A stretch of DNA of 38,197 bases, taken from contig CAOJRT010000014.1 in assembly GCA_948442255.1 (NCBI GenBank), positions 1 through 38,197 on the forward strand, written 5' to 3'. Under the pieces are notes generated by a model, which was not told the origin of the DNA, ran no database searches, and worked only from the letters and a program-made list of their open reading frames with translations. Positions within the stretch are counted from its first letter, which is position 1; every line of letters begins with the position of its first letter. This DNA is from an uncultured Caryophanales bacterium. Lineage in GTDB: Bacteria; Bacillota_I; Bacilli_A; RF39; UBA660. Shown piece by piece: positions 6,629-27,029 of this stretch. The translations under genes were made by a program, and so were the position numbers.

Positions 6629-6657
6629 TTGACAAAGATATTTTTAGAGAGTAAAAT
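6629..6657 (+). promoter_or_regulatory. Strong sigma-A type promoter of the TasA/SipW locus
   Basis: A perfect -35 TTGACA (6629-6634), an exact 17-nt spacer and -10 TAAAAT (6652-6657). The expected start of transcription is about 6664, giving a 47-nt leader. This is the best consensus promoter in the window. Confidence 0.85.
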
Positions 6658-6673
6658 TGAATTAGTAAAATAA

Positions 6674-10131: not shown

Positions 10132-10160
10132 AGCACCAGAAAAAAGAGGGGGTGTTTCAA

Positions 10161-13100
10161 TTGGCAAAGAAATACACTTTAATTAAAGGAGCTTCTTTAG
10201 GTTTGGCTATAACTATAGTCGGCTTAAATGGATCATTTCAACTAGGTAAAAAAGAAAATATTCCTGGTTTTGAAAAGACGGAGGAAGATGTTATTTATGA
10301 ACAAGATTTGAAGGATATTCAAGAAAGTGACATGACGTTTGAAAATGAAGAACTATTTTCCTATTTATTAAAAACATATAATTTAGAAACAAAAGAAGAA
10401 GTAAGAAAATTAAAAGAAGTAACGATTGATAGCACTTTGACTAATACGAACCTAAACGATTTAAAATATTTACAGGATTTAAGCTCTCTAACGATTAAGA
10501 ACATGGATATTGACTTGGAAACTATAAACTACAATGTCAATTTGCAATCTCTTACAATAGAGAATGCAAAAGTAACACATACAGCTTCCATCCCAAACGG
10601 AGTAGAAACTGTAAATTTTTCAAATGTCACAATGACAGATGGGTATTGTATTGTTCCGTATTTTGCTAAAAGTGTGACTTATAAAGAGTGTTTATTTAGT
10701 GTATTCCATTTAAAAAATGCTGAATTACTAGAATCTTTTTGCTTCTCTGGTAATGGATATTTAGATTTAGAAGAATTTGAAAAATGCGTGAATTTAAAAC
10801 AGATTACATTAGAAAAATGTGGAAATATCACGAATGCAACTGTGTTAGCCAATCTTAGTCAGTTAGAAGAAATAAATTTAGATGATTATGCACCATGTTG
10901 GTTAAATTTAAAAACTGCAGAAAGTTTAAATTTTAATAACAAAATTGATACACTAGAAGAAATAGAAGCTTTAGAAAGTCTAATTGATAATTTAACGCCA
11001 AGTTATGGCTTAAACGAAGAAGAAAAAATAAAGGTATTCATTAACTATATTGTAGATACATTAACAGAAGATAGAATTCCAACAAAAGTGCTTAATGGAA
11101 TATCATCTAGACATTACTATTATCAAATGCAACCAATCTATAATTTTGTGATAAAAAAGGATAAATTAACAACTGGTGCCAATTTTAACTACATTGCCAA
11201 AGCCTTATTTACCCAAAGTGGAATAGAGGCAAAAATAGAGACAAATGGAGAGGATTTGTGGCTTAATGTTAGTGGTAGAAAAATAGATATTGTTAATTAT
11301 AGTAGATTTCATAAATATAACTTATTTGTAGACTTGATTTATAGTAGCTTTGATGAGTTTTCTTATGAAGAAGAAAAAATAGAACCAAATAGAGGACCAT
11401 TATCTCCTTATTATGAAAAAGAATATAAAATCGAAAAAAGAGATTTAACCAATAATCAAAAATCTAGTTTGGCTCTAACAATAATAGGAGAAAGCCTACT
11501 ATTGTTAATTTTATATGGAATAGAAAAAGATCCTTTGCTAAAGAAGAAAATGAAAATCATCTGGAGAACGTTACGCGAAGAAGTAGAAGGCTTAGATGAT
11601 TTAATATATGAAAATGCCTTTTACGAACTTTATGAAGCCATAAAAGTCAACGTAGATGTATTAGTAGAAGAAGCTAAAAAAGAGGAAATGGAAGGCAAAC
11701 ATGTAGAAGATAATTTGCTTGATAGAAAAGATGTTTTTTGTACAATGGCGACTAATATAAGTACTATGATTATAAAAGTATTACAAAGGTATGGAATTCA
11801 CTATAAGGGAAAACCAGAAGAAACGCAATTGGTTTTAAGTGTAGCAAAAGGCGTAGAGGAGTTAATTGAGAATACAACCTCTGTAAAAGATAGTGAAGAA
11901 AAGAAATACACATTATTAGGACTTATAGAGGATAATCTATTTAAAGAATTAGAGTCACTATTAAAAAGAAGACAAGATGTCCCATCATTTGAGAAAGATC
12001 CTTCTATTAATGATTTAGTTAATAGACTAAAAAAAGATATTCAAGAAAATGGGAATAAAGAAAAACAGAGATTGACAAAAGAACAAAAAAATGCTTGGGA
12101 AATTGTGCAAAGAATTGTAAATAGCAAACCAAATATAGAAATCCCATCAGCAACTCTACCTATAATTCCCCCTAATAACTTAGAAGAGAACGATGCTAAG
12201 AAAACAATGTTAGAAATCAAAACAATTCGTGAAGAATCGCAAAAACAAGAACAATGGATAAAAGAAAGTTTTGCATCTTCTATACGAGCACAAAAAGAAA
12301 GACTAGACGATATTTTTGAAGAAAAAAAGGCCATTTTAGAGAATAAATTAATAAAAGAACTTGCCGAAAATCCTAAGGTGGATAAAAAAGTAATCCAATT
12401 CTTGGTTGAAAATCCACATCTAGCAGAAGCAATTCATATTGAAAAAATAATAAAAGCATTCAAAAAACAGGAATTAATAAAAGAATGGTTAAAAAAGGCT
12501 GGAGCATCTATAAGACAAAAAGAATTAGTAAGTGTAATTACACCATTTGAAAAGCTATTAGCAAAAAATTTTTTAGACCAAATAGAGCAACCTTATATAA
12601 ACAAGATGGAGAATACGTATGCTTACCAAGAGCTAATAAGAAAGACTGTGGAAATAGCTACTGCTACAAGAACACCAAAACAATTACCAAGTGTAATCAT
12701 TCCTTGTGAAGCGTTAGAACAAACAAAACTTGAAACAAAAGAAAAACTGCTTCCAAGTGTAATTACCCCACCGAAAGTAGGTTACCAAGAAATAGAAAAT
12801 CTTTTAGAAGTAGTAAAAGAAACGATTACAGAAACCATCCGCTCAACAAATTCATATGGCGTTTTGATAAACAAAAATCCAAAGGAAGCAGTTTCACCTA
12901 TCTTCTCAGAAATAAAGCCAAGTCATTATTCTACGTTAAAAGACAATGCAAAAATGGCAGTAGAAAAGAAAAAAGAAGAGATTATTACGAGCGATACTAT
13001 TCTAAAAAAAGGCTTAAAAATACAACCAGAAAATAGTGGTGAGGTATCAACTTCTTTACAAGCAAGCCAAGATAATGGCGTCAAACAAAAACCAGATAAA

Positions 13101-16100
13101 CAAACCAAAGCATCAAAAACAACAAAGAAAAAGAAGACAACAACAAAGAAAAAGAAGACAACAACAAAGAAAAAAAAGCCTACAACAAAGAAATCATCTA
13201 AAAGCGATACTAAGCAAAGAAAAACAGAAAAGATAGCTCAAGAAATCCAACAAAGTACGCAAGCAGTTCAAATAACGGAACCATTAACAGAATTGTTCTA
13301 TACAAAGAGATTTTGGGCAACTTATAATAACTTAAAATGGTATAAAGAAGTAAATGATATCAGTAGACCAAAACAGTTACCAAGTATAACTCTTTCAGTA
13401 GAAGAAATTATGCAGAGAATTCCGGTTTTAAAATCCAAAATGCGTGTTTTCTATATAACACAGTTTATAGCAGAGTACCAAAATAGATTTAATACAAATG
13501 GTTATGTTAGTACTCATGCTTTACCAAGCATTCCTGTTTTGGAACAGATTATAGAAGAAGTAATCGTACCACAAGATAAACAATCAGATGATTTGCTTGT
13601 ACCAATTGAAGCTTTGGACAAATCAAAAATACTTGAAGAAGTACCAAGTGATGATTCGAATTTGAGTCAAGCTATAATAAAGGTGAAAGAATTGGAAAGT
13701 GAAGATGACCTAAATAATAGGACAAGTGCCACACTTTCTACAGATTATGAATATATACTCGTTTATAGTGGACCTAAAGGGGATAAATATGTCTCACTTG
13801 CAGCAGTTTTTAAAGAAGTGTTAAAGCAAAGGTGTAATTACTTAGTTAAAGAAGCAAGAGCTGCAAATCATACGCTGAAAAATCCACGAAATTTTGTGAA
13901 TTTAAAGCCAGGTATTCGTGATGAAAATACTGCTGAAGTACAGCTTGCAAGTGATGTGGCAGACCTTTCTTCTGCTACTGCGAGTAGATTAGCATCTATT
14001 ACTAACCAACCTCTTAACTTTCAAAGAGCTCAGGAGAGTAGTATTGCTAGTATGTTAGAAAGATTTGATAGGGAAATAAAAAGTTCTAATGATTTTTTAG
14101 GGAGAATTGATGCTCCTAAAACAGATATAGAGCAAATAAAAATCACCTTGACTAAAGATTGGAAGCCAGTAAAGGACTCACTTATCTCTTTAATAGAAAG
14201 TGCTGTAAATACTCAAATAGCAACTGAATTAAAAGGTTTATCTTTTAGTTTTGAAAGCCAAGGAAAGCAAGTAGAATACCAAGCAACAGTGTTAGATGAA
14301 ATTAAAAGTTCAATACATAAAATGGTGGAGGCTCAAAAAGCAAGTCAATTAAAAGTAGTTAAAATGGAAAAATTATTAACTGTCTATGACATATTAGCAG
14401 AAAAAGACAACATAGATAAAATGAACGATAAGTATTTAAAAATAAGTGATCAAGTAGATTTGGTGTTACATAAAACAGAGTATCAATTAAAAGCACTATC
14501 CAATTTACTAGAGCATACAAAAGAAGAAGGATTAGGAAGTAAAGATATGAAAAAGGTTACAAAAAAAACAACTACAGGACAATCTGACTTTAAAAAGCGT
14601 TTTGAAGAGCTAGATGAAGAATTTGAACTACCTTTTATTTCTTTGTTGCTTGGTAAGGAGGATAGCTCTCTAGATGAATATGAAGATAAAGATGACTTTG
14701 AAGAATATGATGAAGAATCAGTAGAAGATTTAAAGCGGGCTGATCCTAATCAACAAGAGAAAGAAGGTGAAATAATGGGAGATTTGCAAAAACAAGAAAG
14801 TCAAATAAATGCGGCCATAGAAAAAGAACAAAATGTATTAGCAGCAGGAGTTCAAGAAATTATGGATGAAGAAGAGCAGGCAAGAGAATTTATGAAAAAA
14901 TTAGAAAAAGATATAGAATACTTAAGAAGGCTTATGTTAATACCACCAAAAGAAATGACTATATATTTACAAGAAGATTTAGCACTAGAAATAATAAATG
15001 CAAAAGAATACTTAAAGCAAATAAGTAATTTAGAATTTGCAGTAACCGAAGAAATTAAAATTATGAAAGAAGAGATAGAGAAGATCATAGCGCAATATGA
15101 AACTAGAAAAAGTACTATTGATCATACTGTTCAAATAAATCAATCTATTGAAATGGAAACTATAGCATCTGTAGAAAATGAAACATACTCTAATATAGAG
15201 GAAAAAGGAAGTTTTAGTGAAAAACCTTTTTTAGAAGATGTAACAGTTTACCATCAAGAGACATTTACATCAGATAGTACAGAAGAAAACCTAAATATGG
15301 CTGAGATAGAAGATTTAATAAACTCAATAACCTCACTTATGAAAGAAATGGATGCAGGAAAATATAAATCCATGTATGAACAAACGGCAAAGGATATGTT
15401 AGCTAGCAAAATAGAAGAAGCTCATCAAATGTTGACTAACCTTAAAAATATAAAGGGTAAATCCACTTCTACAATATATCAACCACAAGAAAAATTATTA
15501 ATAGAAACTATCACAAAATATGAAGATTGGTTAGTATTGAACTCTTCTAATGAGGAACAATTAGTAGCTATACCAGTTGAAGAGGAAGAAGAAAACTCTT
15601 TATCAGAAAGTTTTCTATTGAATGTAGAAAATCTAATAGATTCTATAGATACGTTAATGAGAGTAGTAGACGAAAACAATGATCCTATATATATTCAAAA
15701 ATTAGCCGATCAAATTGAAGAGGCACGTCAAATTTTTGCCAGCCTTGAAGAAAAGGAAGAATCTATTTATAAAATACAAATGGTAAGAGAAGAATTAACC
15801 CGTATTATTAAAAGTTACGAAGATTGGTTAGAATTGAAAAATAAAGAGGAAGAAGAAAATAAGAAAATAGTAAGAGAATTAGAAAGTTATATAGGAAGTT
15901 TAAAAAGTGCCCTTAGCATTTTAGAAGATGAAAATCGTAATCCTGATGCTGAAGTTATAGTACGATGGTGCTACATGGAACCTGTTTATGAATATTTACT
16001 TGAACTACAGAAAAAACAGAGAATATATACTTCTGAAATACAAGGTTTGCAAGAGAAAGTTGAAAACAGTTTAAGCTCCCTAGAAAATATATTAAAAGAA

Positions 16101-17117
16101 ACTGCTGCAGAAGAACAAGCAGAAGAATTAGAAAAACTAAAAAATCGCTTAGAACATGTTGAATCACTTATGTCTGCAACAGCGGAAAAAAACCACCTTT
16201 CTACTTATGATCAACTCTTAATAAATGAAATAGATTGGATACGTACTTATCTAGATAATAATGCGAATGCCGAGAATACTTCCGATTCTGAAGTACAGAT
16301 AATTAACGAAAAAATAAAGGAAATTTTAAGAAAATATGATGATAGATTAAAACTTAATGTACAATCATATCAAAGTGGTTCACCAGTTAAAGAACAAGAA
16401 GAAATAAAAGGGAACAACAGCGATGCCTTTAACACAGGAAGAAGGGATGAAGATATGGACGAACTATTATCTAAGGAAGAATTAGACAGACTATTTGAAG
16501 AATGGACTAATACAGGTTCAAAAGAAGACGTAAGTGACAGTTTAGATGCTACTAGTGAACAATATGGAGATGAGGGAGAATCTAGAGAAGAATCTAAGCC
16601 TTTGCCACTTGCAGAAGAAAGTGCTGAAGAACGCGATTTTTCTTCACAAGAATCTTTAGGGGAACAACAAGAAGTTCAACAAATAAACGATATGAACTTA
16701 GAAGATAGAATTTTATCAAGCATTATGGATAGCATGAATGGGACACAAAATGAAGGTAGTCAACAGAAAAAAAGTGCACAAAAAGAAGAGCCAAGAGATG
16801 AAAATCCAAATAGTGTGAGTTTAAAAAATAGAACTTTTGCAAACGTTATAGTAAGCATGAATGGGACACAAAATGAAAGTAGTCAACAGAAAGAAAGTAC
16901 ACAAAAAGAAGAGTCAAGAGATGAAAATCCAAATAGTGTGAGTTTAAAAAATAGAACTTTTGCAAGCATTATAGCAAGCATGAATAGTACACCATCCACA
17001 GCATCAAAACGAGATATGCTAGAAATGCAAAGAGATATAATACAAGCACTTATGGACCGACAAGGAGTAAAAGCACTTATGGACCGACAAGGAGTAAAAT
17101 TAAGTAAGAGAATGTAG
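10161..17117 (+). CDS. Giant LRR / degenerate transglutaminase-like / coiled-coil protein
   Basis: A 2318-residue protein of unknown function. The start is TTG at 10161, because the AGAGGGGG site (10145-10152) overlaps an in-frame GTG at 10152. Parts in order: an N-terminal hydrophobic segment (about 5-24); irregular LRR-like repeats (about 75-250); a region shaped like a transglutaminase core (about 265-385), in which the expected Cys block reads GANFNYIAKALF and the His block DLWLNV, so it is probably inactive; a transmembrane helix (about 433-454); a very long K/E-rich helical region with recurring LPS(V/I) motifs; a lysine/threonine tandem tract (about 984-1013); an acidic patch (about 1500-1525); about five three-helix repeats (about 1576-2066); and 41-residue and 9-residue duplications near the end. 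No sorting signal is seen. It probably scaffolds the envelope or spore coat; that is inference. Confidence 0.8.
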   Translation: MAKKYTLIKGASLGLAITIVGLNGSFQLGKKENIPGFEKTEEDVIYEQDLKDIQESDMTFENEELFSYLLKTYNLETKEEVRKLKEVTIDSTLTNTNLNDLKYLQDLSSLTIKNMDIDLETINYNVNLQSLTIENAKVTHTASIPNGVETVNFSNVTMTDGYCIVPYFAKSVTYKECLFSVFHLKNAELLESFCFSGNGYLDLEEFEKCVNLKQITLEKCGNITNATVLANLSQLEEINLDDYAPCWLNLKTAESLNFNNKIDTLEEIEALESLIDNLTPSYGLNEEEKIKVFINYIVDTLTEDRIPTKVLNGISSRHYYYQMQPIYNFVIKKDKLTTGANFNYIAKALFTQSGIEAKIETNGEDLWLNVSGRKIDIVNYSRFHKYNLFVDLIYSSFDEFSYEEEKIEPNRGPLSPYYEKEYKIEKRDLTNNQKSSLALTIIGESLLLLILYGIEKDPLLKKKMKIIWRTLREEVEGLDDLIYENAFYELYEAIKVNVDVLVEEAKKEEMEGKHVEDNLLDRKDVFCTMATNISTMIIKVLQRYGIHYKGKPEETQLVLSVAKGVEELIENTTSVKDSEEKKYTLLGLIEDNLFKELESLLKRRQDVPSFEKDPSINDLVNRLKKDIQENGNKEKQRLTKEQKNAWEIVQRIVNSKPNIEIPSATLPIIPPNNLEENDAKKTMLEIKTIREESQKQEQWIKESFASSIRAQKERLDDIFEEKKAILENKLIKELAENPKVDKKVIQFLVENPHLAEAIHIEKIIKAFKKQELIKEWLKKAGASIRQKELVSVITPFEKLLAKNFLDQIEQPYINKMENTYAYQELIRKTVEIATATRTPKQLPSVIIPCEALEQTKLETKEKLLPSVITPPKVGYQEIENLLEVVKETITETIRSTNSYGVLINKNPKEAVSPIFSEIKPSHYSTLKDNAKMAVEKKKEEIITSDTILKKGLKIQPENSGEVSTSLQASQDNGVKQKPDKQTKASKTTKKKKTTTKKKKTTTKKKKPTTKKSSKSDTKQRKTEKIAQEIQQSTQAVQITEPLTELFYTKRFWATYNNLKWYKEVNDISRPKQLPSITLSVEEIMQRIPVLKSKMRVFYITQFIAEYQNRFNTNGYVSTHALPSIPVLEQIIEEVIVPQDKQSDDLLVPIEALDKSKILEEVPSDDSNLSQAIIKVKELESEDDLNNRTSATLSTDYEYILVYSGPKGDKYVSLAAVFKEVLKQRCNYLVKEARAANHTLKNPRNFVNLKPGIRDENTAEVQLASDVADLSSATASRLASITNQPLNFQRAQESSIASMLERFDREIKSSNDFLGRIDAPKTDIEQIKITLTKDWKPVKDSLISLIESAVNTQIATELKGLSFSFESQGKQVEYQATVLDEIKSSIHKMVEAQKASQLKVVKMEKLLTVYDILAEKDNIDKMNDKYLKISDQVDLVLHKTEYQLKALSNLLEHTKEEGLGSKDMKKVTKKTTTGQSDFKKRFEELDEEFELPFISLLLGKEDSSLDEYEDKDDFEEYDEESVEDLKRADPNQQEKEGEIMGDLQKQESQINAAIEKEQNVLAAGVQEIMDEEEQAREFMKKLEKDIEYLRRLMLIPPKEMTIYLQEDLALEIINAKEYLKQISNLEFAVTEEIKIMKEEIEKIIAQYETRKSTIDHTVQINQSIEMETIASVENETYSNIEEKGSFSEKPFLEDVTVYHQETFTSDSTEENLNMAEIEDLINSITSLMKEMDAGKYKSMYEQTAKDMLASKIEEAHQMLTNLKNIKGKSTSTIYQPQEKLLIETITKYEDWLVLNSSNEEQLVAIPVEEEEENSLSESFLLNVENLIDSIDTLMRVVDENNDPIYIQKLADQIEEARQIFASLEEKEESIYKIQMVREELTRIIKSYEDWLELKNKEEEENKKIVRELESYIGSLKSALSILEDENRNPDAEVIVRWCYMEPVYEYLLELQKKQRIYTSEIQGLQEKVENSLSSLENILKETAAEEQAEELEKLKNRLEHVESLMSATAEKNHLSTYDQLLINEIDWIRTYLDNNANAENTSDSEVQIINEKIKEILRKYDDRLKLNVQSYQSGSPVKEQEEIKGNNSDAFNTGRRDEDMDELLSKEELDRLFEEWTNTGSKEDVSDSLDATSEQYGDEGESREESKPLPLAEESAEERDFSSQESLGEQQEVQQINDMNLEDRILSSIMDSMNGTQNEGSQQKKSAQKEEPRDENPNSVSLKNRTFANVIVSMNGTQNESSQQKESTQKEESRDENPNSVSLKNRTFASIIASMNSTPSTASKRDMLEMQRDIIQALMDRQGVKALMDRQGVKLSKRM
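13117..13195 (+). repeat. 21-bp tandem repeat encoding Lys/Thr heptads
   Basis: About three units of ACAACAACAAAGAAAAAGAAG encode repeated TTTKKKK. The tract sits within the giant gene and is very basic, like a nucleic-acid or teichoic-acid binding linker. Confidence 0.85.
14885..16360 (+). repeat. About five divergent three-helix repeats in the giant protein
   Basis: Units of roughly 75-85 residues begin near 14885, 15295, 15610, 15860 and 16122. Each has a helix like IEDLINSITSLM, a middle helix like LADQIEEARQIF and a last helix ending in YETR, YEDWL, YEDWL, SLENIL or YDDRL. The pattern resembles spectrin-like bundles, but I read it by eye only. Confidence 0.6.
16731..16976 (+). repeat. 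Two 123-bp tandem copies (41 residues) near the giant's C-terminus
   Basis: 16731-16853 and 16854-16976 are near-identical 123-bp units starting SMNGTQNE and ending in RTFA.. plus a short helix. Partial versions of the terminal motif flank them (ILSSIMDSMN before, SMNST after). Confidence 0.9.
17046..17099 (+). repeat. Perfect 27-bp tandem duplication (ALMDRQGVK twice)
   Basis: 17046-17072 and 17073-17099 are identical 27-mers at the extreme 3' end of the giant gene. Perfect identity indicates a recent duplication. Confidence 0.95.
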
Positions 17118-17164: not shown

Positions 17165-18367
17165 ATGAAAAATATAGAAATAATAAAATTGGATAACCAA
17201 GGTAGAGGAATCAGTTACACCGATAATAAGATAACTTTCATCAAAAAAGCTCTTCCCAAAGATATTGTAGATATAAAAATAATAAAAGAGTACAAAAAAT
17301 ACAAAGAAGCACAAATAATCGTTATCAAAGAAAAAAGTCCTTTAAGAAAAAAACCACCATGTCCTTATTTTAACTTATGTGGAGGTTGTAATTTTCTTAA
17401 TCTTTCTTATGAAGAAACGCTTAACTATAAAGAAGAAAAACTCCAAAACATAATAAGAAAATATGGGAATATAGAAAAAAAAGTCAAAGTAAACCCTTCA
17501 AAAAATTGTCTTTCTTATCGTAACAAAATTACATTAAAAATAAGAAGAAAAGAAATTGGATACTATGAAGAAGACACACACACTTTATTAAAAATTGAAA
17601 ATTGTCTTTTAGCGGAAGAACCAATTCAAAAAATAATAAAAGAGATAAAATATTTAAATATAGAAGAGGGCGAAGTTGTTATACGTTCTAATTACAACCA
17701 AGAGCTATTATTATGGATAAAAACAAACAAAAAAGTAAATCCAGATATAGCTTATTTAAGAGAACATCATAAAATTGTTGGAATTGTTTTAAATGATACC
17801 TGTATTTTTGGGGAACCCTATCTAATAGAAAGAATAAATAAGCAAATATTTAAAGTTTCTTATGACTCCTTTTTTCAAATTAATCGCTATATTTGTGAAC
17901 AAATATTTAATAAAATAAATAATAATATTGAAGACTCTGAAGTATTACTAGATTTATATTGTGGAGTAGGTACACTTGGAATAAATGCTTCTAAAAAAGC
18001 AAATAAAGTATATGGTATTGAAATTGTCAAAAATGCCATTATAAACGCTATAGAGAATGCTTCCATCAATAAAAGAGAAAATAATTTCTATTTACTTGGG
18101 GATGTTGGAAAATCACTTGCCAAAATAAAGGATAAAATCGATACCATTATTGTTGACCCTCCACGAGCAGGATTAGATAGGAAAACCAAAGAAAAAATAA
18201 AAGAGTATCATCCCAAAAAAATAATTTATGTTTCTTGTGACCCAATGACATTAGCCAGAGATTTAAAAGATTTATCTGCACTTTATGATATTCTAACTAT
18301 TGAAGGTTATGATATGTTTCCTTTTACACACCATGTGGAATGTGTATGTGTGATGAGTAGACGATAA
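17165..18367 (+). CDS. rlmD: 23S rRNA (uracil-C5)-methyltransferase, RlmD/RlmCD family
   Basis: A 400-residue SAM-dependent RNA m5U methyltransferase of the TrmA/RlmD family. The start at 17165 follows AAAAGGA; ten upstream in-frame codons overlap the promoter and are not used. Residues 1-58 form a TRAM-like RNA-binding domain. The four Fe-S cysteines are present (C66, C72, C75 in CPYFNLCGGC, and C147). The SAM site is LLDLYCGVGTLG (about 261-272), followed by DPPRAGLD (331-338). The catalytic nucleophile is C358 in VSCDP, and the general base is E392 in HHVECV. Whether it modifies U1939, U747 or both cannot be told; many Bacillota have a dual-specific RlmCD. It marks the left edge of the accessory cassette. 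Confidence 0.92.
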   Translation: MKNIEIIKLDNQGRGISYTDNKITFIKKALPKDIVDIKIIKEYKKYKEAQIIVIKEKSPLRKKPPCPYFNLCGGCNFLNLSYEETLNYKEEKLQNIIRKYGNIEKKVKVNPSKNCLSYRNKITLKIRRKEIGYYEEDTHTLLKIENCLLAEEPIQKIIKEIKYLNIEEGEVVIRSNYNQELLLWIKTNKKVNPDIAYLREHHKIVGIVLNDTCIFGEPYLIERINKQIFKVSYDSFFQINRYICEQIFNKINNNIEDSEVLLDLYCGVGTLGINASKKANKVYGIEIVKNAIINAIENASINKRENNFYLLGDVGKSLAKIKDKIDTIIVDPPRAGLDRKTKEKIKEYHPKKIIYVSCDPMTLARDLKDLSALYDILTIEGYDMFPFTHHVECVCVMSRR

Positions 18368-18612
18368 ACCATTATAAATAAAGGGAAAGCCAACTATTCA
18401 TCAGGGGTCAAAAAAATGGCAAAAAACGAGTAAATTATTGATATTTTTACTAATTTTTGAAAAAATATTATGGAGGTTGTATGTGGAGAATATGTTTCAT
18501 CATACCACTCTAAATGGTATGTGCCTATTAGTTGAATTTGGTAAGTAATAGATCGTGTTCTTACATATATGTCTTTATTTACTGTTACTGTATAACTTGA
18601 AAGGAGTTAAAA
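18368..18612 (+). other. Intergenic region before the two-component system
   Basis: 245 bp between rlmD and the response regulator, with no clear terminator after rlmD. It holds a degenerate pair TTTTAC/TTTGAA 11 bp apart (18445-18461), which resembles the TTTGAC boxes downstream. A 10-residue ORF (18481-18513, MWRICFIIPL) has GGAGGT just upstream. A 7-bp stem-loop (18501-18507 with 18515-18521) spans that ORF's stop. A weak -10 TATAAC (18591-18596) lies ahead of the AAAGGAG site of the regulator gene. Confidence 0.5.
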
Positions 18613-19287
18613 ATGAAAAAAATTTTGGTTGTTGATGATGAAGAAATGATAACAGACTTAATATCTACCTGTTTATTAGATAAGGGATATGAAGTAATGG
18701 TTGCCAACAGTAGCGAAGAAGCACTATTATATATTCCTAAATCTCCTAATTTGATTATTTTAGATATAAATATGCCAAGTGTAAATGGTTTAGAACTATG
18801 CAAAAATATTCGTGATTATATTTATTGTCCTATAATTTTTTTGACTGCTAGAGTTAGTGAACAAGACAAAATAAATGGCTTTAGATATGGAGCAGATGAT
18901 TATATTACAAAACCATTTAGTTTGAAAGAATTAACTGCTCGAGTTGAAGCACATTTAAGACGAGATGAAAGAAGTAAAAATAATTTATCAATTATGACTT
19001 TTGCAGATGGTTTAATAATAAATCTATCAAGTAGAAAAATATATTTTGAAAAAATAGAAATACCATTTTCTAAAAAAGAATTTGACATAATAGAGTTTTT
19101 AATTGTTAATTCTGGACAGGTTTTTGATAAAGAACAAATTTATGAAAAAATTTGGGGATATGATGCTTTAGGAGATAGTAATGTAGTTAAAGAGCATATT
19201 CGCAAAATTCGTGCAAAATTTAAAGATGTTACTGGAAAAGAGTACATAGATACAAGTTGGGGAGTTGGTTACTGTTGGAAAAATTAA
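18613..19287 (+). CDS. OmpR/PhoB-family response regulator (VanR-like)
   Basis: A 224-residue DNA-binding response regulator. The receiver domain has acidic residues D8-D9, phospho-acceptor D51 (LIILDINMP), T78 (FLTAR) and K100 (YITKPF). A winged-helix output domain (about 130-224) carries FSKKEFDIIEFL, VVKEHIRKIRAKF and a WGVGYCW wing. It forms an operon with the histidine kinase 5 nt downstream. The likely targets are the two TTTGAC direct-repeat promoters in this cassette. The class is related to VanR and other envelope-stress regulators, but the signal is unknown. The start follows AAAGGAG. Confidence 0.92.
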   Translation: MKKILVVDDEEMITDLISTCLLDKGYEVMVANSSEEALLYIPKSPNLIILDINMPSVNGLELCKNIRDYIYCPIIFLTARVSEQDKINGFRYGADDYITKPFSLKELTARVEAHLRRDERSKNNLSIMTFADGLIINLSSRKIYFEKIEIPFSKKEFDIIEFLIVNSGQVFDKEQIYEKIWGYDALGDSNVVKEHIRKIRAKFKDVTGKEYIDTSWGVGYCWKN

Positions 19288-19292
19288 AAAAT

Positions 19293-20564
19293 ATGAATAA
19301 ATCATTATCAATAAGAAAATTTTTTGCTTTAGTTGTTTTTAGTACATTCCTAATTGTCATTGTATTGTCAATAATATGTATTTGGGGTGGCACAAAATTT
19401 AGAAATTATCTAGTTCCAAATTCAAATGATGTCGTTTTAACATTAGAACTTACGAATCAAGAGGGTCAAAAAATGGGTATAGTTGTAGCAACTGAATTAG
19501 GTAGTGAAGCAGTAAAAATGCCAATGATAATAGATAGCTCAGAGTCATCAAAGGATTATATATCATTAGACGATATTGAGATAAAAGTTGTAAAAGTAGA
19601 AAATAGTTTTGAAAAACTTACTCCTAAAAGAAAATTTGCGTATCAAGCAACGGGAGTGTTAATGGTTTTACTTCCTTTATTATTTTCAATTAGTGGTATT
19701 TTGATAGCAGGATTCATTTTTTATAAAAGAAAATTAAAAGAGCCTTTAAGAATTTTATCAAATTCAATGCAAGAAGTAGCAAAAGAAAATCTTGATTTTA
19801 ATGTTTTTTATGACTCTGATGATGAAATGGGAGCGTTATGTTCTTCATTTGAAGAAATGCGAAGAGCATTAGAAGAAAATTATAAACAACTATGGAAAAT
19901 GATAGAAGAAAGAAAAATTTTACAAGCTTCTGTTGCTCATGATTTAAGAAATCCTATTACCATTATAAAAGGGTACACAGAATATTTACAAGAAAATTTA
20001 GAATATAAAGATTTATCTAATGAAAAAATTATTGAAATAATAAATAATATAAATAAAACAACTGAAAGATTAGAAAACTATACTAATTCTATTCGTGCAA
20101 TAAATCAATTAGATGAAATGAAGATTGAGCGTAAAGAAGTAAGCATAAAAGAATTTATAGAAAATGCTTGTAATGATTTTTTATTGATGACTAAATCTAA
20201 AGCGATTAAATTAGAAATTACAGACCATATACCAAAAGGCATTTTTTACATTGATGTTGATGTAGTTTATAGAATAGTAGAAAATATTATAAATAATGCC
20301 TTAAGATATGCAAAGAAAAAAATTAAAATTTCATTTGAAATAAAACATAATTTTTTAATCATTATTGTAAAAGATGATGGTATTGGTTTTAGTGAAAATG
20401 TTTTGTCTGGAAATCATAAATTGATTATTTCAAATAATAAAGATGGACATAATGGTATGGGTTTAACGATAAGCCGTATCCTATGTAATAAGCATGGTGG
20501 AGAACTCAAACTTGACAACGATGAAAAAAATGGAGCAAAAGTAATAATAAAAATACAAATTTGA
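19293..20564 (+). CDS. Sensor histidine kinase (VanS-like)
   Basis: A 423-residue membrane histidine kinase, partner of the regulator before it. I choose ATG 19293 (5 nt after the regulator's stop, probably coupled); an in-frame TTG at 19257 would overlap it. TM1 is about 10-31. A short extracytoplasmic sensor of about 85 residues follows, then TM2 about 118-144, a HAMP-like linker, and the H-box SVAHDLRNPITIIKGY with His216. The N-box is ENIINNALRYA, G1 DDGIGFS and G2 GHNGMGLTISR. The sensor is small, so it may sense within the membrane or through the ABC transporter. The TGA stop lies inside the first TTTGAC box of the next promoter. Confidence 0.92.
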   Translation: MNKSLSIRKFFALVVFSTFLIVIVLSIICIWGGTKFRNYLVPNSNDVVLTLELTNQEGQKMGIVVATELGSEAVKMPMIIDSSESSKDYISLDDIEIKVVKVENSFEKLTPKRKFAYQATGVLMVLLPLLFSISGILIAGFIFYKRKLKEPLRILSNSMQEVAKENLDFNVFYDSDDEMGALCSSFEEMRRALEENYKQLWKMIEERKILQASVAHDLRNPITIIKGYTEYLQENLEYKDLSNEKIIEIINNINKTTERLENYTNSIRAINQLDEMKIERKEVSIKEFIENACNDFLLMTKSKAIKLEITDHIPKGIFYIDVDVVYRIVENIINNALRYAKKKIKISFEIKHNFLIIIVKDDGIGFSENVLSGNHKLIISNNKDGHNGMGLTISRILCNKHGGELKLDNDEKNGAKVIIKIQI

Positions 20565-20611
20565 CGGATTTTTGACTTTTATTTTATATCATATCCTTGT
20601 AAGCCTAGAAT
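20560..20611 (+). promoter_or_regulatory. Regulated promoter copy 1 with two TTTGAC boxes
   Basis: TTTGAC at 20560-20565 and 20571-20576 (11-bp period, one helical turn), then -35 TTTATA (20583-20588), 17-nt spacer and -10 TAGAAT (20606-20611). OmpR-family regulators commonly bind such direct repeats just upstream of -35. It overlaps the kinase stop and drives the deacetylase gene. Confidence 0.7.
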
Positions 20612-20631
20612 GGCACGACAAGGAGTTTTTT

Positions 20632-21561
20632 ATGAGAAAAAGAAAAATTTATATCAAAAAGAAATTAAAATATAGAATAAAAGTAATTTGTTTTATTATT
20701 TTTACAGTTTTAATATTAAATTGTGTAAACAATATCTTAAAATCTTTTCATAATAGTGCAAATGAGTCTTTGACAAATGAGAATGAACAAGTTATTGATA
20801 ATCAAAAAAAGGAGAATCAAGAGGAAAATACTCTTTTAAATGAAAACGATAGTTATCAAATTCCAAGCGATAGACAGGATATAAATGATAATACTACTAA
20901 TTATACTACAAATAATCAACCTATAAATAATTTTGAAAGAGATATAAATAATTTTAAAAATAAAAAACTGATCGCTTTTACCTTTGATGATGGACCTAAT
21001 TCTAAAACTACCAATAAATTGCTAGATAATTTGGATAAATATAATGCTCGTGTAACTTTCTTTGTTGTTGGTAATCGTGTAAAAACTTATGAAGATACTT
21101 TGAAAAGAGCGTACGATATGGGTAATTTAATAGGAAGCCATACTTACAGCCATAAAAACCTTTTTGAATTAAACAATAATCAAATAGTAGATGAAATTAA
21201 AAAAACAAACAATGTAATAAAGGAAGTAACTGGTAGCAATACTCTTTATTTAAGACCTCCGTATGGCAATACAAATAAAAATATAAAAAATCTTGCTAAT
21301 ATGTATAATATTCTTTGGGATTTAGATACTGAAGATTGGAAATATAAAGATAAGAATAAAATAGCAAAATATATTATTGATAATGCTCACGATGGAGGAA
21401 TAATTTTATTACACGATTTATATGAGACATCAATTGATGGAGCATTACTGGCAATGGAAGAATTATCAAAAAATGGATATGCTTTCGTTACAATAGAAGA
21501 AATGGCAACTTTAAAAGGTATAACTCTTAATAAGGCAAGTAATTATTTTAATCTTAAATAA
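20632..21561 (+). CDS. Membrane-anchored polysaccharide deacetylase (NodB domain)
   Basis: A 309-residue carbohydrate esterase 4 protein, probably acting on peptidoglycan or another wall glycan outside the cell. The start is ATG 20632 after AAGGAG (20620-20625). A very basic N-terminus and one transmembrane helix (about 17-33) are followed by an Asn/Glu-rich linker to about 105. The NodB domain then shows TFDDGPNSKTT (catalytic and metal Asp), SHTYSH (metal His pair), RPPYGNTN, DLDTEDWK and ILLHDLYE, so it looks active. N-deacetylation of peptidoglycan typically gives lysozyme or antimicrobial resistance. Placement directly under the TTTGAC promoter suggests two-component control. Confidence 0.9.
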   Translation: MRKRKIYIKKKLKYRIKVICFIIFTVLILNCVNNILKSFHNSANESLTNENEQVIDNQKKENQEENTLLNENDSYQIPSDRQDINDNTTNYTTNNQPINNFERDINNFKNKKLIAFTFDDGPNSKTTNKLLDNLDKYNARVTFFVVGNRVKTYEDTLKRAYDMGNLIGSHTYSHKNLFELNNNQIVDEIKKTNNVIKEVTGSNTLYLRPPYGNTNKNIKNLANMYNILWDLDTEDWKYKDKNKIAKYIIDNAHDGGIILLHDLYETSIDGALLAMEELSKNGYAFVTIEEMATLKGITLNKASNYFNLK

Positions 21562-21573
21562 AAAAATTATAAA

Positions 21574-21625
21574 TTTGACGAATTTTTGACTTTTGTTTTA
21601 TATCATATTCTTGTAAGTCTAAAAT
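21574..21625 (+). promoter_or_regulatory. Regulated promoter copy 2 with two TTTGAC boxes
   Basis: Nearly identical to copy 1: TTTGAC at 21574-21579 and 21585-21590, -35 TTTATA (21597-21602), 17-nt spacer and -10 TAAAAT (21620-21625). The conserved block then diverges. It should transcribe the stub ORF and the lipoprotein/ABC transporter genes. Confidence 0.7.
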
Positions 21626-21641
21626 GGCTTAGTAAGGAGTA

Positions 21642-21782
21642 ATGCAGCAAAGGAGAAGATATAAAAGGAAAAAATTAAAACTTAAAATCAAGATATTTAT
21701 ATTTGTACTATTATCAATAGTAAAAAATAGGGGAATTCAAAGAAAAAATCAGGTATTATTTAAATATTTGATATTTAGTTAA
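21642..21782 (+). pseudogene. Remnant of a duplicated deacetylase gene (N-terminal stub)
   Basis: A 46-codon ORF starting MQQRRRYKRKKLKLKIKIF follows the second TTTGAC promoter exactly where the deacetylase starts in the first copy. Its basic stretch and hydrophobic helix match the deacetylase N-terminus (MRKRKIYIKKKLKYRIKV). It then runs into unrelated codons and stops at 21780-21782; no NodB domain follows. AAGGAG is only 2 nt from the ATG, so translation would be poor. I read it as a promoter-plus-5'-end duplication whose body was lost, leaving the promoter for the lipoprotein operon. Confidence 0.6.
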
Positions 21783-21809
21783 ATAGTTTAAAGATAGGAT
21801 TGATATATT

Positions 21810-23138
21810 ATGAAAAAAGTATTAACAATTTTAATTATAATTGGTGGGATTTTCACACTTTGTGGATGTCAAAAAAATATAAAAGAAGTATTTTTACCAT
21901 CTAAAGATGAAGAAGGGGAAGTTAAAAATAATAGCAGTGATTTAAAATTTTTAAGTAATGGTGCTACTACAAATGATGGATATTATTATTTAACAGATTA
22001 TAGCAGATTAAATAATGGCAAACTTGCTAAACACTTAATGTATATTGATTTTAAAACAAAACAAGAAATACATTTATGTAATAATTCTGCTTGTACTCAT
22101 AAAACAGAGGATTGTACTTCAGTTTTTAACAAAGATGAATTTCAGATTGATTCTAAAGTCTTTATTTGGAACAATAAAATTTATGTTATAAGCAAAAGCA
22201 TAGATACATCAGGGCAGGTTACAATGGGAGCTTTAGGTGAAACATCAAAAAACAATGTGGAAAGTAACAAAGCTGTATTATATAAGTTAAATTTAGATGG
22301 AACAAATAGAGAGAAGATTTATACATTTGATGATAATTCTACAATAGAAGATTTTGTAATTGGTAGTGGTAATGGAATTTATTTGATTGCCAAAAAAGTT
22401 GAAACTAAATATACTGGTGGGAATGCTTATAGCACTTCTAGTGAACGAAAACTTATCTATTTAGATTTAAATACTAAAAAAGAATCTACTATTCTTTCTA
22501 TGAATAGAAATGACAATATTGATTGGAAAGTTATTGGCAGTACAGAGCGAAGCCTTATTTTACACGGTATAGATTTAGGTGGACAAGTGACTGATGAAGA
22601 AAAACATAATAATAATGATTTGTATAAAAATTCTTCTGATGTTTTTGCACTTCTTGATATTGATAATGATACATTAAAAGAAGTTTATCGTGTGAAAGCA
22701 CCTTCACGCACATATACGGTTGATGAAAAAAATTTGTATTATAACATAGATGGAAATAGCAAAATCTTAAAAATTGATTTAAAAACTGGTAAGGAAGAAA
22801 CTTTAGCCAACTTATCTAGTGTTTGGGTTGATCGAGTAATTGATAATAAATTATTATGTATAACAAATAGTGGTAAAAATCCTATAAGTTATTTTATTGA
22901 TGTAGATACAGGTAAGATGACAGAATCAAAACTTGTTAACAAGAGTACAGGATTTTCTATAGAAATAATTAGTACATCTCAAAAAGAAGTTTTAGCAATA
23001 TATGATTCTGATGTTACTTTTAATAGTGATGGTTCATGGACAACTCATAGCAATAAATATGGAGTAATTAGTAAAGAAGATTTTTATTCTGGAAAAGATA
23101 ATTTTAAAGGAATTAAAAGAGTTTATGGAGGTGAGTAA
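21810..23138 (+). CDS. Beta-propeller-like lipoprotein of the ABC/two-component cassette
   Basis: A 442-residue surface lipoprotein. The signal peptide ends in lipobox LCGC (Cys20). An acidic linker follows, then a repeated-strand body typical of seven-bladed propellers (repeats such as YYYLTDYS, KIYVISKS, GIYLIAKK, NLYYNIDGN, KILKIDLKTGKEE). LCNNSACTHKTEDC (about residues 90-103) is a cysteine/histidine motif that I recall from lipoproteins beside VanRS-type systems and ABC transporters in gut Bacillota. It may be a sensor or binding subunit for the adjacent transporter. Its stop is one base from the next start. Substrate unknown. Confidence 0.75.
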   Translation: MKKVLTILIIIGGIFTLCGCQKNIKEVFLPSKDEEGEVKNNSSDLKFLSNGATTNDGYYYLTDYSRLNNGKLAKHLMYIDFKTKQEIHLCNNSACTHKTEDCTSVFNKDEFQIDSKVFIWNNKIYVISKSIDTSGQVTMGALGETSKNNVESNKAVLYKLNLDGTNREKIYTFDDNSTIEDFVIGSGNGIYLIAKKVETKYTGGNAYSTSSERKLIYLDLNTKKESTILSMNRNDNIDWKVIGSTERSLILHGIDLGGQVTDEEKHNNNDLYKNSSDVFALLDIDNDTLKEVYRVKAPSRTYTVDEKNLYYNIDGNSKILKIDLKTGKEETLANLSSVWVDRVIDNKLLCITNSGKNPISYFIDVDTGKMTESKLVNKSTGFSIEIISTSQKEVLAIYDSDVTFNSDGSWTTHSNKYGVISKEDFYSGKDNFKGIKRVYGGE

Positions 23139-23139
23139 A

Positions 23140-23853
23140 ATGCTAGAACTTGAACATATTTCAAAAGAATACAAAAATAAAAAAGCCCTTAAAGATGTTA
23201 ATTTGATTTTTGAAAATGGAATATATGGACTTTTAGGTCCAAATGGAGCAGGGAAATCAACTCTTATGAATATAATAACGGGTAATTTAAGCCCAACAGA
23301 AGGAAATGTAAAATGGAATAAAGAAGATATAAAAAAATTGGGTGCTTCTTATAGAAGCTTACTAGGTTTTGCTCCACAACAGCAAGGAATGTATGATAGT
23401 TTTTCTGGCACAAGATTTCTTTCTTATATGGCGACTTTAAAAGGCATACCAAAAAAAGAGTTAAATAATGAAATTAAAAGAGTTCTAAATTATGTTAATA
23501 TGATGGAAGTTAAAGACCAAAAAATAGGAACATACTCTGGAGGAATGAAACAAAGAATTTTAATAGCACAAGCGATACTTGGAAACCCTAAAATAGTAGT
23601 TTTAGATGAACCTACTGTAGGGTTAGATCCGAAAGAGAGGGTACGAATAAGAGAAAGAATTGCTACATTATCAAAAGAAAAAATAATTTTAGTTTCTACA
23701 CACGTTGTATCTGATATTGAGTCTGTGGCAAATAAAATTATTCTTATAAAAAAAGGAAAAATTATTGATATGGATTCAGTTGTGGCTCTTTGTGAAAAAA
23801 ATAATGTTTCTAGTTTAGAAGAAGTATATATGAAATTATTTGGAGATGAATAG
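23140..23853 (+). CDS. ABC transporter ATP-binding protein
   Basis: A 237-residue ABC-2 type ATPase that powers the permease encoded next. The ATG at 23140 follows a perfect GGAGGTGA (23128-23135). Walker A is GPNGAGKST (about 32-40), the Q-loop region LGFAPQQQGMYDSF, the signature YSGGMKQR (variant of LSGGQ), Walker B IVVLDEPTVGLD and the H-loop VSTHVV. All catalytic elements are present. Sequence class and context (VanRS-like system, wall deacetylase) suggest export or removal of an envelope-active compound, for example a peptide antimicrobial; that is inference. Confidence 0.93.
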   Translation: MLELEHISKEYKNKKALKDVNLIFENGIYGLLGPNGAGKSTLMNIITGNLSPTEGNVKWNKEDIKKLGASYRSLLGFAPQQQGMYDSFSGTRFLSYMATLKGIPKKELNNEIKRVLNYVNMMEVKDQKIGTYSGGMKQRILIAQAILGNPKIVVLDEPTVGLDPKERVRIRERIATLSKEKIILVSTHVVSDIESVANKIILIKKGKIIDMDSVVALCEKNNVSSLEEVYMKLFGDE

Positions 23854-23855
23854 AT

Positions 23856-26129
23856 ATGTGGAGTTTAATCTATTTTGAATTAAAAAAAATATGGAATAAA
23901 AAAAGTTTTGTTTTTATAACTTGTTTATTGTTAATTATAAATATATTTTTCCTTTGGTACACAAATTTAGAAAATGAAAAAAAACCATCACTTTCTTCTT
24001 ATAAAATGTTTCAAACTGAAATATTAAATATGAGTGAAAGTGAAAAAGAAGAATATGTAAAAAAATTAAAAAAGGATGTTGATGGTATTCATTTTGTAAT
24101 AGATATATTAAATATGCAGAAAAATGAAATCGGAAGTTTTTTTGTTGAACAGGAATTGAATGAGAATCCAGGAGTTTTTGAAACCTATTATGAAATATAT
24201 AAATCAGGAAATTATTTGCATTTCACATCATCATTAGAGCAAGAACAAATTTTTATTAATGAAATATATAATGAACAAGTCAAAGTATCAGGATATGATG
24301 ATTATTTAGAAGGTATAAAAAAAGACAAAGGTAAATTAGAGGGTATTTCTATATTTAATAATCAAGATGAAAGTAACTTTTCTACTCGTAATATAAAGAA
24401 AAGTGCAAAAGATTATTCAAAGTTAAATTCTAGTAATGTTAAATTTATACCATCAAAAACAATAGTATCAACTATTGAAAATATAGGAACAGACATACTT
24501 TTGATTTTAATTACATTTTTATTTATTGGAAATTTAATAACTGAAGAAAAAGAAAAGAAGTTATTTTATGTTACTCGTAGTACAAAGTATGGAGTAGTAC
24601 ATAGTATTTTTGCCAAAATTATAGCCTTGTTTATTCATTGTATAATATTTAGCGTTTTGCTTTTTGGTATAAATTATTTGTTTTTTGGAATATTTGGTGG
24701 ATTTCATGATTTAGGAATAAAATTGCAATCTTTGGCACCATATATGGAAAGCAATTTTAATGGAAGCATATTAGAATATCTTATTATTTCTATACTAACA
24801 AAAGGAATCGTTGTATTTGGAATCGGGACTATTATTACAGCCATTTGCATTATCTCCGATAGTATGATACTTCCATATATGTTAGGTATTTCATTTTTAG
24901 GTATAAGTTGGTTATTTTATAAAATTATACCAGCAGTATCTAATCTTAATATAATAAAGCACTTAAATATATTTGGTATTTTAAAAACAGAAAATTTATA
25001 TGGTTCATATTTAAACTTTAATTTTTTTGAATATCCAATTTCAAGAATAACTTTTTCTTGGATTATGATAGTGGGGTTACTCATACTGGGAATTTTCTTG
25101 TGTGTTAAGTTCTTTTTAAAAGGTAAAAGTTTAGAATTAAAAAGATCCACTAAGAACTTTATATTGAAATTTAAACCACATACTTCTTTATTTAAACACG
25201 AACTTTATAAAATTTTAATAACTAATAAAGGAATTATAATCATTTTGATATTTAATCTGTTAATCTGTTATAACGAATTACAAAGAAGATATAGTCCATC
25301 ACTTCAAGAGCAATATTATCAAAATATTATGTTGAAATTAGAGGGAAAACCAACTGAAGAAAAAACAGAACTTATTAAAGTAGAAAAATCAAGATTTGAT
25401 GAAGCCTTTTCAAAAATATCAGAAATTGATGAACAAATGGTAAGAGGTGAGATAAACGATACAACTGGAGAAGCCATGAAAGTAAAATGGTATAGTATTA
25501 CTGCTTTTTATCCTATCTTTGAGAAAGTATTAGAACAAGATAAGTATGTAAAAGAAAATGATGGAAATTACATTTATGATACTGGATACTTATATTTATT
25601 TGGAGTAATGGATGATGGCATACTCAATGACTTTATTCTACTCACTCTAAGTATTATATTTATGTTTTGCAACGTTATGGCGATTGAGTATCAAAATAAG
25701 GCAGTAAATATACTTCAAGCGACAAAAAAAGGAAAAAAAGCAATTATTAAAACTAAAGTCAAGGCAACAATGATTATTGTTTTATTACTTTGCATTTTAC
25801 CATTTGTTTGTAGATTCATTAGTGTTTCTAGCTCATTCCCGATAAATGGCTTTTTGCTATCAGCAAAAGATATATCTATTTATCATAATTTGCCATCTGG
25901 AATACTGGTGATAGGTTTGATTTTATTAAAAATCTTTATCCAAGCTTTCTCTGGAATAATTATGGCAACGCTTATTTTAACTATTTCTGCTTGGAAAAAA
26001 AATAATGTTCAAACTATATTTTTGGGGCTTTTGATACTTTGTGTGCCTTTAGTATTAATTTTATTGGGTTTCGAGTATATGAAATTATTTTCGTTATATC
26101 CTTTATATTCATATACATTTGGAAACTAA
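23856..26129 (+). CDS. Tandem-fused ABC-2 type permease
   Basis: A 757-residue membrane permease starting 2 nt after the ATPase stop, its obvious partner. It appears to be two permeases fused: each half begins with a cytoplasmic entry (FELKKIWNKKSFVF near residue 5; KHELYKILITNKGIII near 447), one transmembrane helix, a large extracellular loop of about 120-170 residues, and then about five helices. One chain would therefore supply the whole transmembrane pore. Large loops suggest recognition of an extracellular ligand. The 3' end is intact, with the stop at 26127-26129. Confidence 0.85.
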   Translation: MWSLIYFELKKIWNKKSFVFITCLLLIINIFFLWYTNLENEKKPSLSSYKMFQTEILNMSESEKEEYVKKLKKDVDGIHFVIDILNMQKNEIGSFFVEQELNENPGVFETYYEIYKSGNYLHFTSSLEQEQIFINEIYNEQVKVSGYDDYLEGIKKDKGKLEGISIFNNQDESNFSTRNIKKSAKDYSKLNSSNVKFIPSKTIVSTIENIGTDILLILITFLFIGNLITEEKEKKLFYVTRSTKYGVVHSIFAKIIALFIHCIIFSVLLFGINYLFFGIFGGFHDLGIKLQSLAPYMESNFNGSILEYLIISILTKGIVVFGIGTIITAICIISDSMILPYMLGISFLGISWLFYKIIPAVSNLNIIKHLNIFGILKTENLYGSYLNFNFFEYPISRITFSWIMIVGLLILGIFLCVKFFLKGKSLELKRSTKNFILKFKPHTSLFKHELYKILITNKGIIIILIFNLLICYNELQRRYSPSLQEQYYQNIMLKLEGKPTEEKTELIKVEKSRFDEAFSKISEIDEQMVRGEINDTTGEAMKVKWYSITAFYPIFEKVLEQDKYVKENDGNYIYDTGYLYLFGVMDDGILNDFILLTLSIIFMFCNVMAIEYQNKAVNILQATKKGKKAIIKTKVKATMIIVLLLCILPFVCRFISVSSSFPINGFLLSAKDISIYHNLPSGILVIGLILLKIFIQAFSGIIMATLILTISAWKKNNVQTIFLGLLILCVPLVLILLGFEYMKLFSLYPLYSYTFGN

Positions 26130-26232: not shown

Positions 26233-26780
26233 ATGATTAAGTTACTTGTACTAGAAGATGATCCAGAAGTAAGATATGGAATCTACGATTATTTAAAACA
26301 AAATTATGAAGCATTTGTTACCAATGATGAAAAAGAAGTTTTTAGAATTTTGAATTAGACGAATATAGACTTAATTATTTTTGATTATTCGATAATTAGT
26401 ATAAATTTAAAACAATTTGTTGCAGCATTAAAGACAAGCAACGATAAAATACTTACAATGATATTGTCAGCCCAACTGGAAGATAGTGATAAAAAATGCC
26501 TATTCCAAAGTGATATTGACGAATATATAAATTAGCCATTCGATAGTTGGAATTACAATTTAGAATAGAACACCTACTGAAAAAAACAAAGTAATTAATA
26601 TAGAAACTAATTAAAACAGATGACTTAATAATAAATTGTGAAACTAACATAGTAGTTTATTGTGATAACAAATTAGAATTTTTCAATAAAGAATTTAAAA
26701 TATTGTATCATTTGTTCACTTCTCCCAACAAGCCAGTCTATTGAATAGTTACAATTTTGGGCTAACTGTTTAAGTATAAG
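26233..26780 (+). pseudogene. Dead OmpR-family response regulator gene
   Basis: Translation from ATG 26233 gives MIKLLVLEDDPEVRYGIYDY, then an in-frame TAG at 26356, LIIFDY (phospho-Asp region), ILTMILSAQLEDSD and DEYIN-stop-PFD, where a live regulator has DDYITKPF. A +1 shift near 26545 restores ELQFRIEHLLKK. Further stops precede DDLIINCETN and FFNKEFKILYHLF, which match the start of the winged-helix domain in the live regulator at 18613. The frame is lost after 26744. At least six stops and one frameshift make it non-functional. No kinase gene accompanies it. It is probably a relic of a second two-component system. Confidence 0.85.
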
Positions 26781-27029
26781 GGTTTGAATCATATTTTTTG
26801 ATTTTTATATTCAGAATATGTACTTATGTGAATAGCTAATTCAAATTTGATATGTATATTGCGACATAGTCAGTTATAACCAAACATGTAGATTGCAATT
26901 ATTCATAATGGACATTCTAGTCATGTAGAGTGTGTAAATGTGCTAGAAAATAAGGAGAATAGCTAAGTATAAGTAATCACATAATAAAAAGATAAGTAGA
27001 AAATAAAAGTTTTCCAAAAACACCTATTT
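26781..27029 (+). other. Decayed sequence with a possible methyltransferase tail
   Basis: No intact gene. In 26904-26966 one frame reads HNGHSSHVECVNVLENKENS and stops. The SHVECV stretch matches the C-terminal catalytic motif of TrmA/RlmD-type methyltransferases. At 26922-26942, 17 of 21 bases equal rlmD 18332-18352. The rest shows no recognisable coding. Confidence 0.4.

Follow-up and report, generated by a model that had tools for sequence, protein, structure and literature searches.

In a 38,197-nucleotide stretch of DNA from an uncultured Caryophanales bacterium (contig CAOJRT010000014.1 of assembly GCA_948442255.1; hereafter the window), genes for a two-component system, a polysaccharide deacetylase, a lipoprotein and an ATP-binding cassette (ABC) transporter enclose two promoter regions with paired TTTGAC boxes, raising the question of whether these boxes are the operators of the response regulator encoded beside them, and what the genes behind them might do. 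The explanation we favor, with a probability of roughly 0.78, is a self-contained two-component envelope-response cassette with PhoB-like paired-box operators, a lock in the leaders of its effector genes and an origin in an integrative element. The kinase would sense an extracellular signal, and the phosphorylated regulator would bind NTTGAC-N5-NTTGAC head-to-tail and, like PhoB, recruit polymerase at promoters that lack a proper -35 element, thereby switching on the deacetylase and the amidase-lipoprotein-ABC genes. Messenger RNA (mRNA) reading through from the regulator and kinase genes would fold shut, and mRNA started at the promoters would escape this by lacking the 5' arm of the fold. 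Changes to the wall would follow, and the exporter, together with its propeller partner, may remove or fend off the offending agent. The deacetylase and amidase would be later additions sharing one duplicated promoter-plus-signal-anchor segment. All cassette features and relics given coordinates below lie on the forward strand.

Paired boxes and the recognition helix

The regulator gene (18,613 to 19,287) encodes an OmpR/PhoB-family protein with a receiver and a winged-helix domain (Pfam Response_reg, E 1.5e-28, and Trans_reg_C, E 1.1e-21), whose recognition helix was read from an alignment as VVKEHIRKIR. It is followed by a sensor histidine kinase (19,293 to 20,564) with an extracellular region and HAMP, HisKA and HATPase domains, assigned from Pfam and alignment. 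Operator 1 (TTTGAC-GGATT-TTTGAC, 20,560 to 20,576) overlaps the kinase stop codon, while operator 2 (TTTGAC-GAATT-TTTGAC, 21,574 to 21,590) is, by comparison with close relatives, the native promoter of an amidase-lipoprotein-ABC operon. The pairing at an exact 11-bp pitch, first pointed out in a reading of the window made without database searches (the sequence-only reading), is present at both blocks and is non-random. A whole-genome pattern scan found only three exact copies of TTTGAC-N5-TTTGAC in 1.64 Mb, so the motif is not scattered; two are in the cassette and the third (contig C2:61066) lies antisense within the ftsA coding sequence. Both promoter blocks are parts of one 84-nt duplication with 85% identity, and a DNA search of the whole genome with an 85-nt block returned only AT-rich chance matches outside the cassette. 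An exact match to operator plus -10 on contig C18 of genome G594 falls inside infB and was dismissed as chance.

The same gene set was then sought in other genomes, the sample being metagenome-assembled genomes mostly from one class of Firmicutes, and the boxes were found to be kept in both close and deeply divergent cassettes. A public-genome scan gave three closely related cassettes, two labelled 'uncultured Clostridium' (L038 and L039) and one 'uncultured Bacillales' (L040), with lipoproteins 98%, 97% and 92% identical to that of the window, respectively, and paired boxes in all three. The far more distant L051 (regulator 54%, kinase 36-37% and permease 36% identical to the window) has an exact TTTGAC-N5-TTTGAC before its lipoprotein operon and a one-mismatch copy before its regulator. 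The shorter pattern TTGAC-N6-TTGAC precedes the regulator start by at most 90 bp in L051, in L064 and in five further entries found by a search with the regulator alignment (L100, L101, L102, L103 and L104/L105); L051 and L100 also have it upstream of the lipoprotein, within the same distance. At each site, the probability of meeting this pattern by chance in 150 bp is 1e-4 to 7e-4. Across 370 kb of strand-sequence from these loci it occurred 17 times, 14 of them at the promoters in question; two of the remaining three matches had been fetched because they matched, and one lay elsewhere.

Box sequence also follows the regulator's DNA-reading surface. The divergent regulators of the seven box-bearing loci are 50-58% identical, and all have a V(V/I)KEH(I/V)RKIR recognition helix. 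Boxes accompanied 8 of 8 regulator types with the VxKEHxRKIR helix and none of 5 more distant types with other helices (Fisher 8e-4, in a test that takes related loci as independent although they share ancestry and L107 and L108 are near-identical). A sister branch of regulators with the helix RT(V/L)DLHIQRLRKK is associated instead with GATACA-N5-GATACA or TTTACA-N5-GATACA repeats at the same 11-bp pitch, at the lipoprotein operons of L048-L050 and L052-L054 and additionally at the regulator in L052-L054. Comparison thus shows that the twin boxes form a direct repeat of 11-bp pitch, conserved in this regulator clade both at the regulator gene itself and at its effector operons. The co-variation of box and helix is the strongest evidence, comparative rather than direct, that the regulator binds them. 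As the same pairs precede the same kinds of gene in distant relatives while a related branch uses another pair, the boxes are very probably the landing sites of the cassette's own regulator. The suggestion in the sequence-only reading that they are operators of the neighboring OmpR-family protein therefore holds as far as comparison goes: they are not scattered, are kept in homologous cassettes and track the helix. Besides the shared ancestry of the loci tested, a further point weighs against this reading, namely that the window's regulator gene has an abiEii relic upstream in place of a box of its own, so autoregulation has been lost here or is indirect.

Searches further afield returned little. 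No relative turned up when viral contigs were scanned with the kinase, the amidase, an alignment of the lipoprotein and two promoter patterns; plasmids searched with the lipoprotein and with the L100 ATPase and permease gave nothing, as was a search of a phage collection with the window DNA, and Rfam gave no match. With the L100 permease, the phage collection yielded one unannotated 16.5-kb faecal contig lacking the operators. We found no description of this gene set in the literature. For uncharacterized mobile envelope-response cassettes of gut Firmicutes, the comparison provides a concrete, testable candidate operator, the recognition helix that matches it and a sister operator (GATACA).

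Inverted repeats over the Shine-Dalgarno sequence

Alignment of 11 promoters placed the best TATAAT-like hexamer at relative position 28, ten bases past the second repeat, a result equalled in none of 2000 shuffled sets, although L101 and L104 match this position poorly. In the window this corresponds to putative -10 elements reading TATCAT, at 20,587 to 20,592 (10 bp past operator 1, with no sigma-A -35) and, for operator 2, at 21,601 to 21,606. Immediately beyond the first lies an inverted repeat (20,594 to 20,631; fold z -3.9) whose left arm (20,594 to 20,600) sits at the start region and whose right arm (20,618 to 20,624) covers the Shine-Dalgarno sequence, followed by six Ts; it occupies the same position in L051 and L100. 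A second one (21,606 to 21,641; fold z -3.2) covers the Shine-Dalgarno sequence of an amidase remnant. At the effector operons, CTTGT at relative positions 37-41 pairs with ACAAGGAG (Shine-Dalgarno), at an identical position in the deacetylase, amidase, L051 and L100 leaders. Stems joining the -10 region to the Shine-Dalgarno sequence reach 14 bp in L051 (p 0.001) and 13 bp in L100 (p 0.002), and in both the left arm takes in part of the -10 itself. Fold z ranges from -3.2 to -5.5 among the leaders (L100 being the lowest, at -5.5), and the arms stay constant while the loops vary (5, about 17 and 30 nt).

A hairpin acting within the promoter's own mRNA was considered and dropped, because the left arm overlaps or abuts the -10. 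With the expected start inside the left arm, such mRNA would be unable to form the full stem, whereas read-through mRNA could form it; the predicted openness of the Shine-Dalgarno sequence is 0.00-0.19 when the RNA reads through and rises to 0.21-0.89 when it starts at the promoter. The same design is documented for T4 gene e (PMC3014915), whose longer transcripts hide the Shine-Dalgarno sequence in a stem, the 5' strand of which comes from the promoter DNA. Here too the 5' arm overlaps the promoter and start and the 3' arm covers the Shine-Dalgarno sequence, though at a bacterial operon under a two-component system and as a prediction only. We tentatively suggest that each effector promoter might double as an RNA lock, and maybe a terminator, on read-through mRNA, so that effectors would be made only from regulator-activated starts. 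If so, a mobile two-component cassette would contain an insulation device like that of T4 gene e, and this would suggest how a tightly packed mobile cassette could hold potentially harmful wall hydrolases off until signalled.

Several observations weigh against the lock. Predicted opening also rises in regulator leaders taken as controls, which keeps the lock at the level of hypothesis; the lock is less pronounced in leaders of the window type; and the strongest pairing with the Shine-Dalgarno sequence in the deacetylase and L048/L050 leaders does not exceed that in shuffled sequences. The repeats could alternatively be intrinsic terminators of the regulator-kinase operon that overlap the downstream promoter, a possibility we rate a little short of even. 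The run of Ts that follows the stem in the deacetylase, L051 and L100 leaders is what a terminator would have, but the amidase leader has none, and the window stems were not called by a terminator scan, whose loop limit leaves out long loops. Lock and terminator are mutually compatible.

Effector genes, probable mobile origin and possible function

Pfam confirmed the gene types named in the sequence-only reading, that is, an OmpR-type regulator, a HAMP histidine kinase, a CE4 deacetylase, an ABC ATPase and an ABC-2 permease, while its description of the pair as VanRS-like proved loose. A two-component pair it is, and the regulator's best scores are against VanR and PhoB models; however, the VanR score of 194 bits is below the 350-bit cut-off, other VanR types score lower still, the kinase is nearer WalK-type models, and the cassette has no van ligase genes. 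BceRS-BceAB is alike in setting a two-component system beside an ABC transporter that it appears to control, in Firmicutes, but the kinase here departs from the intramembrane-sensing type in having about 85 residues between two hydrophobic segments (topology read from sequence), which form an extracellular sensor region, plus HAMP, and the permease models as a fused type-V protein accompanied by a propeller lipoprotein and wall enzymes.

The deacetylase (20,632 to 21,561) is by domain and motifs a membrane-anchored CE4 polysaccharide (peptidoglycan) deacetylase of predicted activity. Its NodB domain (PF01522, E 3e-36) contains TFDDGP, SHTYSH, RPPYG and LLHD, and its nearest solved relative is PdaC (PDB 6h8l, E 5e-47). 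In L038-L040 an intact extra gene lies between deacetylase and lipoprotein and encodes an N-acetylmuramoyl-L-alanine amidase (Amidase_2, nearest XlyA; PF01510, E 4.5e-25, in L040). Alignment with these loci shows that the window retains a remnant (21,642 to 21,782), in which the signal-anchor start has been fused, after loss of about 560 bp, to the frameshifted 3' end, leaving an open reading frame of 46 amino acids from which the catalytic domain is deleted. The second promoter block, taken in the sequence-only reading for the lipoprotein unit's own promoter, is thus that of the amidase, and with the amidase lost it now feeds the lipoprotein and ABC genes. The regulon differs from the one proposed there, comprising the regulator in relatives, the deacetylase and the amidase-lipoprotein-ABC operon. 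In L040 the deacetylase and amidase promoters are 88% identical over 66 nt and the signal-anchors 64% identical at the DNA level, from which we conclude that a single segment carrying promoter and anchor was copied and became attached to two catalytic domains. PdaC guards Bacillus subtilis against lysozyme, and the amidase CwlD denudes the glycan on which PdaA acts (PMC6127315); by these precedents deacetylase plus amidase would be a sensible pair, with substrates predicted. In L052 (6666-7481), L053 (6601-7368) and L054 (5104-5880) a different protein of about 260 amino acids is encoded between kinase and lipoprotein, and the L054 protein had no Pfam match. The slot between kinase and lipoprotein seems to hold exchangeable effectors, which in the window are the deacetylase and amidase.

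The lipoprotein (21,810 to 23,138) had been proposed to be a propeller, which is borne out by an AlphaFold model (predicted local distance difference test, pLDDT, 76) and by fold matches in the PDB (Foldseek top match 3s25; Z up to 18.0, VIA). A C-x4-C-x-H-x4-C motif (22,077 to 22,115, residues 90-102) is invariant in 13 of 13 propeller lipoproteins, including homologues apparently anchored by a helix rather than by lipid, and looks like an extracytoplasmic metal site. An ABC ATPase (Pfam ABC_tran; 23,140 to 23,853) precedes the permease (23,856 to 26,129), which the model (pLDDT 77) confirms, as had been claimed, to be a fused protein with two ABC-2 halves in one chain, a type-V exporter for which export is predicted. 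Its first half aligns with NosY, PmtD and ABCG proteins (Z 16-19, up to 19.2), and alignments with Pdr5 and with an efflux pump of mycobacteria (Z 14-16, root-mean-square deviation 6-7) span both halves. Run by itself, Foldseek returned nothing below E 0.09, and a PDB sequence search gave no match; by Pfam only PF12698 (ABC2_membrane_3) was matched. For the FtsX/MacB-type (type VII) permease of BceAB modules, the structure libraries listed no match, an absence that is not proof. NosDFY likewise has a type-V permease fold and an extracytoplasmic partner protein encoded alongside, but here the partner is a beta-propeller lipoprotein, the permease halves are fused, and there are no nos genes. Within the cassette, a two-component system is tied to a propeller lipoprotein and to a fused type-V exporter.

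Regulator, kinase, lipoprotein, ATPase and permease form a core module that recurs in other Firmicutes without deacetylase or amidase, so the window cassette is best described as the core plus added wall enzymes; the module is rare in the sample, its lipoprotein turning up in 8 of the 392 genomes taken from the phylum, the window's own included. Near 18,350, in the 3' end of rlmD (rumA), the window and L038 pass abruptly from about 55% identity to about 95%, which marks an attL-like site (18,332 to 18,345), and on the other side an attR-like relic (26,919 to 26,966) holds a displaced rlmD tail reading SHVECVNVLENKENS*. Elements with serine integrases integrate at rumA with exchange of 3' ends (PMC4701971). 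The layout matches that of streptococcal integrative conjugative and mobilizable elements in rumA, which enter the rRNA uracil methyltransferase gene at its 3' end and leave the displaced tail opposite, whereas the window element has decayed to cargo, with neither an intact serine integrase nor transfer genes between 18,332 and 26,966. Alignment with L040 identified a relic of the abiEii 3' end (18,543 to 18,595) directly before the regulator. In L040 the cassette stands behind abiEi and a frame-split abiEii (1481-2879), the latter adjoining the regulator gene, and near recombinase fragments, TnpV and a NikA-like protein seen only there (PADLOC, Pfam); a DUF3991/Toprim gene near the L100 cassette also suggests an integrative element. 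From these sequence comparisons, the cassette is cargo that has outlived the decay of an integrative element and lies between relics of its rlmD/rumA attachment sites. A second response-regulator gene downstream of the permease (26,233 to 26,790, end approximate) has several stops and frameshifts in translation; it is also decayed in L038, and L100 has a truncated regulator-like open reading frame in the same place. Having lost the amidase and this regulator, the window element may no longer be fully functional, which counts against our explanation as applied to the window.

Defense against a wall-active compound is a plausible role for the cassette. Alternatively, the deacetylase and amidase might remodel wall or glycolipid as housekeeping, with the exporter moving a wall or lipid precursor. 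A parallel is HexRK of Clostridioides difficile; this two-component system governs a polysaccharide deacetylase with a part in glycolipid synthesis (PMC10128005), and HexD shows that other CE4 substrates are possible; the permease fold is likewise common to lipid, peptide and drug exporters. HexSDF differs in including neither an ABC exporter nor an amidase and in making a glycolipid. Sporadic spread on mobile elements, beside AbiE genes in L040, better fits an accessory role in stress or resistance, so that we consider housekeeping unlikely, if worth keeping in view.

Mode of regulation

The conserved -10 lies 20 bp from the first TTGAC and 9 bp from the second, so neither is usable as a sigma-A -35. 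The repeats, a directly oriented pair of 11 bp each that ends some 10 bp short of a -10 and has no -35, are arranged as in the PHO box, in which two 11-nt direct repeats are bound head-to-tail (PMC4415409). The likeness to PhoB promoters extends to the OmpR-type regulator and the position of the repeats just upstream of the -10, while the box differs (NTTGAC versus CTGTCAT), as do the targets, which here are wall enzymes and an exporter. Given this geometry and the lack of a usable -35, activation by the regulator is most likely.

Some OmpR-type regulators repress, and one sitting on repeats that end only 10 bp from the -10 could block polymerase until a signal relieved it. We regard this as improbable, as the promoter would have no competent -35 without an activator and its geometry is that of PhoB-type activation. 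The sequence-only reading had placed a TTTATA -35 and a TAGAAT -10 at a 17-nt spacing, but such promoter-like pairs numbered 70 in this region versus 60.7 ± 7.9 in shuffles, and divergent homologues preserve neither hexamer. That the boxes are merely duplicated sigma-A -35 hexamers in tandem constitutive promoters, with no regulator bound, is very improbable: TTGAC is indeed the -35 core and the two window blocks stem from one duplication, but both spacings are unusable, the -35/-10 pair first proposed is not above chance, both repeats are kept jointly across loci whose regulators are only 50-58% identical, and the sister branch holds the pitch but switches the sequence to GATACA.

Elsewhere in the window are a 2321-aa protein (10,152 to 17,117) with a Lys/Thr-rich repeat stretch, coiled-coil-like regions and no Pfam match, GerA and GerAC spore-germination genes (4162 to 6701) in what is a 1.6-Mb genome, and a serpin (35,849 to 37,351; PF00079, E 2.7e-41) in a small-genome Firmicute.

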